From contig JACZKK010000007.1 of the NCBI GenBank assembly GCA_014860115.1, positions 1 through 40,352 of the forward strand: a DNA stretch of 40,352 bases, written 5' to 3'. The notes below the pieces were generated by a model. It searched no databases and was not told the DNA's origin. It saw only the letters and a program-made list of their open reading frames with translations. The position numbers were made by a program, and so were the translations under genes. Source of the stretch: Ignavibacteriaceae bacterium (GTDB lineage: Bacteria > Bacteroidota > Ignavibacteria > Ignavibacteriales > Ignavibacteriaceae). Position 1 is the first letter of the stretch. The number at the start of each line of letters is the position of its first letter. This document shows, piece after piece, positions 1,602 through 17,715 of the stretch.

Positions 1602-2900
1602 ATGATAGAGATTACCAGAAAAATTAAAGAACGTGCAATGCTGGTTGCACTGCAGACACGACACGTAAATCGTGAACTTGTTGAAGAGCATCTTTCCGAA
1701 CTTGAAGAACTTGCTGATACTGCCGGTGCGGATTCAATCTTTAAAATCATACAATCAAAATCAGCAATCGATCCTGCGTTTTACATCGGCAAAGGAAAAG
1801 CAGAAGAATTAGCTCAGCTTGTTGAACTGAATGATATTGATCTCGTTATTTCTGATGATGATCTTACTCCTGTTCAGGTAAGAAATCTGGAGAAACTTTT
1901 TAACCGAAAGATCATTGATCGAAGCGGATTGATTCTCGATATCTTTGCTCTTCGTGCAAAAACCAAGGAAGCGAAAACTCAGGTCGAGCTTGCTCAGCTT
2001 GAATATATGCTTCCAAGATTAACACGTGCATGGACCCACCTTTCTAAGCAGTATGGGGGAATTGGTACAAAAGGTCCAGGTGAAACACAGATTGAAACTG
2101 ACAGAAGAATGATACGAACCAGGATCAGTCATCTGAAAGAAAAATTGAAAGAGATTGAATCGCAAAGACAAACTCAAAGCAAAGGTAGAAAAGATTTTGT
2201 GAGGATTTCAATTGCTGGTTACACGAATGCTGGAAAATCAACTTTATTTAATCTTCTAACCAAAGCAGATGTTTTTGCTGAAGATAAATTATTCGCAACA
2301 CTTGATTCAACAACACGCATAGTTAACTTTGATACGCTTGCCTCGGCGAAGCCTTCTGGCGGAGCCGGGAAAGAAAAAATTCTTATTAGCGATACAGTCG
2401 GATTTATAAGAAAACTTCCTGCTCATTTAGTTGCTTCGTTTAAAAGTACGCTTAATGAAGTAAGAGATTCGGATATAATTCTTCATATGATTGATCTTTC
2501 TCATCCGTACTATGAAGATCATTTGAGAGTTGTGGATGAAACTTTAAAGGAATTTGACAGCGAGCACAAAAAAGAAATTAAAGTTTTCAACAAGGTTGAT
2601 TCAGTTAGTGATAAAAGTGTTATTGAATACGTACGAAATAAATATCACGGAAGTGTAATAATCTCTGCTCAGAAAGGAATTAATATTTCTTCGCTGATCA
2701 AATCAATTGAAGCAACTATTAAAGATTCTTTTGTTGAAGAAGAAATCACTCTGAGAATTGAGCAGACAAAACTCGCATCCCAAATTCACGATCTAGCAGA
2801 AGTTACTTCCGTTAAATACGATCACGATACGGTTTTGTTTAAATTCAGAGCGAATAAAGAGAATTCGGAGAAGATTAAAAAGCTAATCTCGAAAGCTTGA
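1602..2900 (+). CDS. hflX: GTPase HflX
   Basis: Ribosome-associated GTPase of the Obg-HflX superfamily that binds the large ribosomal subunit and helps rescue or split stalled ribosomes. The 432-residue product has the N-terminal HflX domain (roughly 10-195), including the glycine-rich segment GGIGTKGPGETQIE, then the G domain: P-loop GYTNAGKST near residue 206, G3 motif DTVGF near 263, and NKVD. The ATG at 1602 is chosen because homology begins just after it (ITRKIKERAMLV). An in-frame upstream ATG at 1539 would translate through an intergenic repeat. Residues about 244-257 (DTLASAKPSGGAGK) form an extra loop between switch I and the DTVGF motif. It is about 11 residues longer than in the E. 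coli protein as I recall it and is encoded by locally GC-rich DNA. Identity is certain; the effect of the loop is unknown. Confidence 0.95.
   Translation: MIEITRKIKERAMLVALQTRHVNRELVEEHLSELEELADTAGADSIFKIIQSKSAIDPAFYIGKGKAEELAQLVELNDIDLVISDDDLTPVQVRNLEKLFNRKIIDRSGLILDIFALRAKTKEAKTQVELAQLEYMLPRLTRAWTHLSKQYGGIGTKGPGETQIETDRRMIRTRISHLKEKLKEIESQRQTQSKGRKDFVRISIAGYTNAGKSTLFNLLTKADVFAEDKLFATLDSTTRIVNFDTLASAKPSGGAGKEKILISDTVGFIRKLPAHLVASFKSTLNEVRDSDIILHMIDLSHPYYEDHLRVVDETLKEFDSEHKKEIKVFNKVDSVSDKSVIEYVRNKYHGSVIISAQKGINISSLIKSIEATIKDSFVEEEITLRIEQTKLASQIHDLAEVTSVKYDHDTVLFKFRANKENSEKIKKLISKA
2336..2370. repeat. GC-rich repeat-like in-frame insert in hflX
   Basis: A GC-rich stretch inside the otherwise AT-rich hflX gene. 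It contains two near-identical 9-mers, GGCGAAGCC and GGCGGAGCC, 4 nt apart, and encodes LASAKPSGGAG. The length difference from ordinary HflX is about 11 codons (33 nt), which matches the size of the stretch. It reads like a short dispersed repeat of Bacteroidota-type genomes that inserted without breaking the frame. That it is dispersed is inferred: no second copy is in the window. Confidence 0.5.
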
Positions 2901-15813: not shown

Positions 15814-17715
15814 ATGAAAAAATTAATTTTTATTACTTGTTTTACAATCTTATTTGTCGGCAAAATATTTGGCCAGGCACAAATTGATATTCCTTTTACA
15901 ATTACAGATGGTACATACAACATACAACTTGCGGTTGGATTGGATTTAACTGCAACAAATTGTATTGATCCGCCTCTAGGTGAGTGGGATATATTTTATT
16001 TCCCACCTCCTGGAGTATTCGAAACAAGGTTTGATTTACAGCCATATGGTTGTCCGGGAATGTCATCATATAAAGATTACAGGGCTCCAGGAAATCCGCC
16101 AGCATTTCCTTTCACAGGAGTGATCGAACATACTTTATGGTGGCAAGTTTCCGCACCGGGTGTACCGATAAATATAACATATAATCTTCCTCCCGGTTCT
16201 ATTATGACTGTTACTGACAATATAACAGGCACATTATTGAATCTAGGTCCATTTACCGGACAGGGAGTTGCAACAATTCCTGGGAGCTATACTGCTTACG
16301 CTACAAAAGCATTATTAAAAATGTTTTACAACAACATTGGCGGAGGAGTAACACAAGGTCCAATCTTTTATTTGCTTCCTGATAACTTAAACTTTGGAGA
16401 CGTTGCTTATGGACAATCAAAAACGCTCCCGGTTATGATTTTAAATATAGGATACTTGGATAGTTTATTTATAAATAATGTCATTTCATCACATGCATCA
16501 TTTACATTTGAGCCAAATTCCTTTCCGATAATATTAGCTCCGGGACAAGCACAAATGTTTGAAATTACCTATTCGGGAATTACTGGTGGAACACATATAG
16601 ATTCAATCTTATTTTTTCATAATGCACCTACTTCTCCAGGTACATTAAATGTTAGTGCAGAAACTTATCCGCCCGGACCGAACTGTGAAGCGCAAATGTT
16701 TTGGCAAGTTATAGTTGCTGAAGAAGGTAATCCTTTTGCAAATCTATTATTGTTTGGTCTTGATTCTGCTGCGACAGATGGTATAGATTCTCAACTGGGT
16801 GAGTCAGAATTGCCTCCATTTCCACCCGCAGGTGCTTTTGAAGCCAGACTTTTTCTTCCGGATAATAACTTTTCTGGAAGTCTAGGTTCATACTGTGATT
16901 TCCGATGTGCTATTCTTCCATATACAGGACAGAAGGAGTGGAGACTTGCTTACCAGACGGAATATGGAAATACAATAAATATAAGTTGGGATTTTCCAGC
17001 TTACATGACGGGTGTTTTGCTAGATATTATCAACGGGACATTTATAAATGTTCCAATGATTGATTCGGGCAGTTATACAGTTCAGGATCCATACACATTT
17101 GATAGGTTGAGAATGTTAATTGATTTTAATATTACATCACCCGTTGAACTTGTTTCCTTCAACGCAACTTTACTTAATAATAATGTTCAACTAAACTGGT
17201 CAACAGCAACGGAAACGAATAACTCAGGGTTTGAGATTCAGAGAAAGGAGTTAGGAGTTAGAAGTCAGGAGTTAGAATGGGAGAAGATTGGTTTTGTTCC
17301 GGGATTTGGGACGACTACTGAACCTAAATCGTATTCTTTCACAGATGAGAATGTTACTACCGGAATGTACAAATACCGGCTCAAGCAAATTGATTTTGAT
17401 GGAAGTTCTGAATTTTCAAATGAAATAGAAGTTGCAGTTGATTTTACTCCGAAGGAATTTGTGCTTTATCAGAATTACCCGAATCCGTTTAATCCGAACA
17501 CAGTAATCAGTTATCAGTTACCGGTGAGCGGTGATGTGATTTTGAAAGTTTACGATGTTCTTGGTAATGAGGTTGCGACACTAGTTGATGAGTATAAGCC
17601 AGCAGGAATGTATGAAGTTGAGTTCAATGCTTCGGCATTACCGAGCGGAGTGTATTTTTATCAGTTGAAGACAGGTAACTATATTCAAACTAAAAAAATG
17701 GTTTTAATGAAGTAA
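15814..17715 (+). CDS. Secreted module-plus-ASH protein with T9SS sorting domain (tandem paralogue 2)
   Basis: 633 residues, 19 nt after paralogue 1, with its own AGGAGGG ribosome binding site. The signal peptide is nearly identical to that of paralogue 1 (ITCFTILFVGKIFGQAQ). Module copy 1 (about 25-178) has GLDLTATNCIDPPLGE and PPPGVFETRF. It has one ASH-like repeat (about 180-285) where paralogue 1 has three. Module copy 2 (about 290-445) has FGLDSAATDGIDSQLGE and PPFPPAGAFEARL. The linker and T9SS tail (YQNYPNPFNPNTV) follow. The loop between GFEI and EW carries an insert encoding QRKELGVRSQEL from a tandem GGAGTTAG-type repeat. The tail (VDEYKPAGMYEVEFNASALP) differs from paralogue 1 at positions where paralogue 1 matches the third gene. 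This is a tandem duplication with loss or gain of internal repeats. Confidence 0.88.
   Translation: MKKLIFITCFTILFVGKIFGQAQIDIPFTITDGTYNIQLAVGLDLTATNCIDPPLGEWDIFYFPPPGVFETRFDLQPYGCPGMSSYKDYRAPGNPPAFPFTGVIEHTLWWQVSAPGVPINITYNLPPGSIMTVTDNITGTLLNLGPFTGQGVATIPGSYTAYATKALLKMFYNNIGGGVTQGPIFYLLPDNLNFGDVAYGQSKTLPVMILNIGYLDSLFINNVISSHASFTFEPNSFPIILAPGQAQMFEITYSGITGGTHIDSILFFHNAPTSPGTLNVSAETYPPGPNCEAQMFWQVIVAEEGNPFANLLLFGLDSAATDGIDSQLGESELPPFPPAGAFEARLFLPDNNFSGSLGSYCDFRCAILPYTGQKEWRLAYQTEYGNTINISWDFPAYMTGVLLDIINGTFINVPMIDSGSYTVQDPYTFDRLRMLIDFNITSPVELVSFNATLLNNNVQLNWSTATETNNSGFEIQRKELGVRSQELEWEKIGFVPGFGTTTEPKSYSFTDENVTTGMYKYRLKQIDFDGSSEFSNEIEVAVDFTPKEFVLYQNYPNPFNPNTVISYQLPVSGDVILKVYDVLGNEVATLVDEYKPAGMYEVEFNASALPSGVYFYQLKTGNYIQTKKMVLMK
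17246..17278. repeat. GGAGTTAG-type repeat in the linker loop of paralogue 2
   Basis: AGGAGTTAGGAGTTAGAAGT followed by CAGGAGTTAGAA: three near-copies of the unit AGGAGTTAG or AGAAGTC within 33 nt, in frame, encoding KELGVRSQELE. This has the form of a short tandem/dispersed repeat, not ordinary coding sequence, and sits in the same protein loop as the insert of paralogue 1. Confidence 0.6.

Follow-up and report, generated by a model that had tools for sequence, protein, structure and literature searches.

The hflX gene and its extra segment

The window (the whole stretch of DNA that was analyzed, 40,352 nucleotides long) comes from an Ignavibacteriaceae bacterium and encodes the GTPase HflX (Table 1). 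The protein matches TIGR03156 with 444.7 bits, above the curated equivalog cut-off of 216.75, and the top matches of a structure search (Foldseek) are ribosome-bound HflX. Its nearest named relatives by sequence are metagenome-assembled genomes of Ignavibacteriaceae/Ignavibacteriales. The program-listed open reading frame (ORF) has GTG 1539 as start and is 453 aa long. Since its first 18–21 residues fall outside the alignments with the nearest relatives, ATG 1602 appears the likelier start, and the N-terminal extension from 1539-1601 is a non-conserved stretch that is probably not translated. These positions form an intergenic repeat-like stretch (CACTAAGACACAAAGGACACAAAG...). Just 3' of hflX, positions 2922-2972 contain a strong CCTCTCC/GGAGAGG-type palindrome, possibly terminator-like or another dispersed repeat. 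The motifs at HflX residues 206, 230, 264, and 330, which we take to be the P-loop, switch I, DTVGF, and NKxD, respectively, are intact.

Table 1. Position of hflX and its insert in the window, and further genes carrying the element
Feature	Location	Strand or orientation	Basis or remark
hflX, GTPase HflX	1602-2897	+	432 aa from ATG; TIGR03156 match; Foldseek
Complete REP-like palindromic element, equal to the insertion	2337-2369	+	R1 match; absent in relatives
5' tail CTTG, unpaired tag	2337-2340	+	CYTG at this place in 16/31 copies
Outer stem, 5' arm CTCGGC	2342-2347	+	RNA fold of 2337-2369; terminal Y-R pair covaries in the family
Inner hairpin GCC-TTCT-GGC	2351-2360	+	Fold; family covariation
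Outer stem, 3' arm GCCGGG, end of element and insertion	2364-2369	+	Fold; G053 array; terminal pair
Amidohydro_3 protein	own genome	element reversed	PDB relative 3igh without added residues
Eco57I/MmeI-type methylase	G032		Added residues end adjoining FDCILGNPPF
SSF symporter	congener G002		In-frame element
DEAD-box helicase	G032		Element between GTGKT and PTRE motifs
Four T9SS-type secreted proteins	G053		In-frame elements

Between switch I and DTVGF, 33 nt (2337-2369) code for residues 246-256 with the peptide LASAKPSGGAG. A preliminary description of this DNA had reported these 11 extra in-frame residues with the right ORF and peptide; it also had the right place, although its coordinates (2336-2370) are refined here. 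As stated there, the insert is much richer in GC (24/33) than the rest of the gene, in which the other 33-nt windows range from 0.242 to 0.515. We found 16 islands of at least 24/33 GC in 433 kb of the own genome, and GC richness alone is therefore uncommon, not unique.

LFATLD and DTVGF are 28 residues apart in this protein compared to 16 (n = 28), 17 (n = 79), or 18 (n = 2) in 109 other HflX proteins, some of which possibly stem from one genome. A tblastn comparison with 29 other HflX loci aligned the region without extra residues. At the DNA level, the empty site reads GATACTAAGGAA in the congener G002 and GATACAAGAGAA in G003, where the window has GATACG-33 nt-AAAGAA. The insert is thus absent in every relative aligned and the spacing is shorter in 109/109 proteins. 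By these comparisons, the 33-nt segment is an insertion, and an insert-bearing HflX occurs in one species only. No target-site duplication is visible in the DNA comparison with G002 and G003. In G003 (L007/L253), a frame break splits hflX, which tblastn therefore matches in two segments; this may be a draft error. The genome under study is itself a draft of 222 contigs with a contamination of 3.56%, yet an assembly or binning artefact is an exceedingly improbable source of the insert: the insertion is exactly in frame and a family member (see below), the flanking parts of HflX share 83–94% identity with the closest relatives that the search returned, and the genome has a single hflX without a second copy.

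A dispersed palindromic element

The preliminary description regarded the insert as built from two 9-mers. Both GGCGRAGCC copies are present (2345-2353 and 2358-2366), where shuffles expect 0.06 and 1/100 reaches two, but they represent the halves of one imperfect palindrome and not a repeat unit. The 9-mer is not enriched in the own genome (16 places versus 14 for the reversed control), and GGCGRAGCC-N-GGCGRAGCC clusters in relatives gave 7 matches versus 8 in reversed controls. A 9-mer repeat family was rejected because the genome count stays at the level of the reversed control.

Plain searches revealed no near-identical second site. The 28-nt core of the insert has no other own-genome site at ≤3 mismatches, and a 22-nt probe at ≤2 mismatches matched no site in any of the other 58 members of a 59-genome set. 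Exact copies are absent from the genome_contigs, viral_contigs, plasmid, and phage collections, and the plasmid and phage matches are weak (best E 0.9 and 4, respectively). Plain similarity to other genome sites seemed positive in a sample biased to contigs holding the 9-mer, and was dropped when the signal vanished in an unbiased 415-kb sample (best score 23; 217/300 shuffles equal or better). The link to other sites therefore rests on a structure-aware model, as related sites appeared only when sequence and hairpin were modelled jointly. No 16-mer occurs at ≥8 places, runs of N excepted, and Rfam gave no relevant match. The second half of the insert agrees at 15/17 nt, counted by eye, with a CCTCTCC-type repeat in a secreted-protein gene (L039), which was judged chance once the model accounted for the entire insert.

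With one mismatch allowed, the left half of the insert occurs at eight sites (including the insert), several of which have a common layout of CGGCG[A/T]AG, a variable middle, and GAAG[A/C]CGGG. The pattern CGGCGWAGN{2,22}GRAGMCGGG was matched 45 times in 26/146 genomes and its reversed control 3 times; in the own genome, the counts are 4 and 0, respectively. A covariance model (R1) was trained on 30 aligned pattern matches, with the hflX insert left out. Fourteen of 44 pattern matches were omitted, two because they had not been fetched and 12 after being read as chance (no closing hairpin, mostly within long ORFs), so this training set, picked partly by eye, is biased towards the hairpin. In the window, R1 matches exactly 2337-2369 over model positions 1-40 with 36.2 bits and an E-value, by Infernal's own calibration, of 4.9e-7; the next best match has 10.6 bits (E 1.7). 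In the own genome, the insert (E 4.8e-5) ranks third of 7 matches at E ≤ 0.1, and matches at this threshold are found in 18/59 related Ignavibacteriales genomes. The insert is thus matched end to end by a model built without its copy, and because the match ends exactly at 2337 and 2369, the boundaries of the insertion are those of the element. The preliminary description proposed the insert as a fourth case of repeat-derived coding sequence in the window. It is indeed repeat-derived, but R1 has no second copy in the window, so the other cases belong to other repeat types.

The element is 30–46 nt in size. A CYTG-like tail at its 5' end precedes a hairpin with an outer stem, an internal loop of the type GWA/GRA, an inner stem that covaries, and a loop that varies. 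The tail, whose bases are absent from the search pattern, reads CYTG directly upstream of the hairpin in 16/31 copies, including the insert. We aligned 71 matches (57 distinct), and 92.9% of the cells in this alignment, which is fitted to the model, pair. Changes on both sides of a pair affect 53 cells compared to 19.6 +/- 3.0 in shuffles, 0/500 of which reach 53. The inner-stem pair is UA in 41, CG in 15, and UG in one of the 57 distinct copies; in the 30 training copies, the first variable inner-stem pair was UA 16, CG 12, UG 1, and unpaired 1. The terminal pair, which joins the element's final base to the one preceding C(N)CGGCG, was not imposed by the original pattern. C stands with G in 13 rows and with A in none, while T stands with A in 25 and with G in five (Fisher p 2e-7, relatedness ignored). 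The remainder of the 57 rows comprises seven G-G rows in which the optional N leaves the reading ambiguous, three that end in T, and four outside the expression used. Since this pair covaries, the stem of the hairpin extends to the element's final base. In the insert, the inner stem is GCC/GGC and the terminal pair C/G. The fold of this copy alone is not exceptional (z -1.61).

In G053, five copies form a head-to-tail array with a 34-nt period, the unit of which is exactly tail plus hairpin, and the HflX insertion is likewise exactly tail (CTTG) plus hairpin. That two independently defined boundaries, of the insertion and of the element, coincide is the strongest single argument for the insertion of a complete element. 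A chance GC-rich expansion, by slippage or duplication of the 9-mer within hflX and without kin sites, would suit the similarity of both 9-mers and the uniqueness of the insert in plain sequence, with a search of the unbiased sample no better than shuffles. This origin is very improbable, as a 40-position model built independently matches the insert over its full length (genome-wide E 4.8e-5), and the match takes in the tail and the terminal pair, which are not products of slippage.

Element arrays, tandem or regularly spaced, were observed at L234, L232, and L233, with the 34-nt period in G053 and a spacing of ~72–88 bp in G048. Two elements lie ~33 nt downstream of a tRNA gene (L170:999-1028 and L162:1030-1072). 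R1 also matches four viral_contigs entries (L334:5430-5465, L332, L333, and L335; best per contig 29.7–41.1 bits), one of them in a tail-gene-like phage region, and the family may thus reach beyond Ignavibacteriales.

Other carrier genes and known palindromic elements

The element lies inside ORFs with Pfam/TIGRFAM matches at 9/54 sites, in either orientation (Table 1). Four more ORF-spanning sites were excluded (two in the first ~20 ORF residues, one in an array, and one weak). Family membership is less certain for two copies, the one in the helicase gene (27 bits, E 0.012) and the T9SS one of L240 (28.7 bits, E 0.005), while the remaining seven copies have at least 30 bits each. An empty site in close relatives was observed for HflX only. 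For the others, the loci compared gave no element-free homologue and we infer from domain comparison that these elements are insertions as well.

Other GC-rich repeats were seen in genes of secreted proteins. In L039 (G000:C63:6799 region), the gene of a T9SS-type secreted protein holds a CCTCTCC...GGAGAGG palindrome that is, as read by eye, in frame and codes for the peptide TSPFPSPYQGEGGEAGRG. L057 (G002:C1:606001-626000) contains further in-frame GC-rich palindromes in secreted proteins, coding for YLPIGQAG and EIPGQARND, the latter resembling the common GTCATTCC..GGAATC repeat. In the window, positions 17246-17277 hold a tandem repeat (AGTCAGGAGTTAGA) coding for KELGVRSQE. It lies in the secreted-protein loop (FEIQ..W) that also receives the REP-like elements of G053 (L238-L240).

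Comparable elements are known. GTAG- and CGTC-tagged REPs, including intragenic copies, are described in PMC3733652 (Di Nocera et al. 2013), which reports CGTC REPs in Bacteroidetes and Chlorobi, and in-frame Rickettsia palindromic elements (RPEs) are summarised in PMC10969869. RPEs are short palindromes in frame in unrelated protein genes, as is the element here with its nine sites in domain-matched ORFs. According to the review (PMC10969869), RPEs measure ~150 bp compared to 30–46 nt here, and the host is a lineage of Ignavibacteriales instead of Rickettsia.

Like the CGTC REPs of PMC3733652, the element is a small hairpin with intragenic copies and no associated transposase. It differs from them in its tag, stem start, and tail, and is far more variable in its inner stem and in the length of its loop: the terminal unpaired CGTC, AT-pair stem start, and loop of 4–5 nt given in that paper are not found in the 57 distinct copies. 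The element shares with GTAG REPs/RAYTs a 4-nt unpaired tail, an imperfect hairpin, arrays, and clusters. Instead of a terminal unpaired GTAG, it has an internal G[T/A]AG with a paired last G, often as GAAG (column 13 is T in 30, A in 24, and C in 3 of 57 copies). In 30 loci with a Y1 transposase gene (PF01797; 92,576 bases, a subset of the PF01797 matches), no element was found at E ≤ 1, and thus no REPtron-like arrangement of elements flanking such a gene nor a linked mobilising enzyme. Y1 transposase genes occur in 53/59 genomes irrespective of the element, and G048, which has 12 elements, lacks such a gene. These data thus gave no RAYT link. The element is accordingly unlikely to be a RAYT-mobilised member of the CGTC- or GTAG-tagged REP superfamilies. 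It resembles them in size, hairpin, 4-nt tail, clusters, and intragenic copies, and CGTC REPs are reported from Bacteroidetes and Chlorobi (PMC3733652); against membership stand the CYTG-like tail, the internal G[T/A]AG, and the lack of an AT-initial stem of 8–9 bp, in addition to the Y1 data.

Our literature search, which covered few subscription journals, found no paper on such elements in Ignavibacteria. The kind (intragenic REPs and RPEs) is already known, and by description the family fits neither published tag class.

Consequences for HflX and origin of the insertion

HflX was modelled with AlphaFold2 from a 65-sequence alignment (mean pLDDT 81.2, pTM 0.74). Residues 248-256 have a pLDDT below 50 and lie between the predicted strands 237-242 and 259-264. 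The insert is therefore predicted to form the disordered tip of the β2-β3 (interswitch) hairpin, which joins the switch regions. In Ras-like folds, the tip of this hairpin points away from the nucleotide. The hflX gene of the window has a dN of 0.057 and a dS of 1.19 against G002 and 0.054/1.16 against G008, comparable to 0.061/1.06 between G002 and G008; these selection estimates are rough since dS exceeds 1. Over 375 shared codons, unique amino-acid changes number 3 in the window, 4 in G002, 3 in G008, 3 in G003, and 29 in G001. As judged from these substitutions, hflX with the insert is under purifying selection, and because both measures resemble those of relatives, there is no sign of decay, although the insertion may be too recent for decay to show.

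The preliminary description had suggested that the insert could alter GTP hydrolysis. This suggestion found no support: the model places the insert at a hairpin tip, motifs G1 to G4 are all intact, and amino-acid change is as low as in relatives. An insert selected as an adaptive loop, altering GTPase activity or ribosome contacts, is improbable. Its place between switch I and DTVGF would suit such a role, as would the contacts of the mycobacterial GTPase domain with the stalk base and of switch I with H89 described in PMC12493154. That paper also describes other lineage-specific insertions in mycobacterial HflX (NTE, HD-loop), likewise extra residues in a ribosome-splitting GTPase, but N-terminal and clade-wide, whereas the insert here lies in the G domain of one species. 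The insert is moreover Gly/Ser/Ala-rich and predicted disordered, HflX has no accelerated amino-acid change, and the same element occurs in unrelated proteins, which points to insertion and not to selection for a loop.

Spacing, relatives, and R1 agree that a lineage-specific segment derived from a repeat was inserted in frame into a housekeeping GTPase, as the preliminary description had it. A near-neutral REP/RPE-like intragenic insertion, rather than a GTPase modification, is the likeliest explanation. The element would have entered hflX after the lineage split from the sampled relatives, presumably moving as a folded single strand, mobilised by some transposase or by copying during replication. 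The copy may have survived because its 33 nt are a multiple of three, no stop codon occurs in the frame used, and eleven flexible residues at an exposed β2-β3 hairpin tip would do little harm, so that a near-neutral consequence for HflX is expected. Taken as a whole, the 33 nt are very probably a copy of a dispersed REP-like palindrome inserted into hflX and near neutral for the protein.

Somewhat more speculatively, the family could be a third class of tagged REPs, defined by a CYTG tail, a GWA/GRA internal loop, and an inner hairpin that evolves freely yet covaries; we consider this possible, though a little short of an even chance. If true, the class would be spread through Ignavibacteriales and beyond, moving without a recognised transposase, and would repeatedly add loops to core proteins (HflX, DEAD-box helicase, DNA methylase, and symporter), so that free-living bacteria would have in it an active supply of new protein loops. 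Rickettsia is the best-known host of palindromes inserted in frame in proteins, and a short, different-looking element behaves likewise in Ignavibacteriales. HflX offers a clean with/without comparison in a widespread GTPase. Two questions thereby become testable: how tagged hairpins that have no transposase of their own are able to spread, and in which protein loops they are tolerated or put to use.
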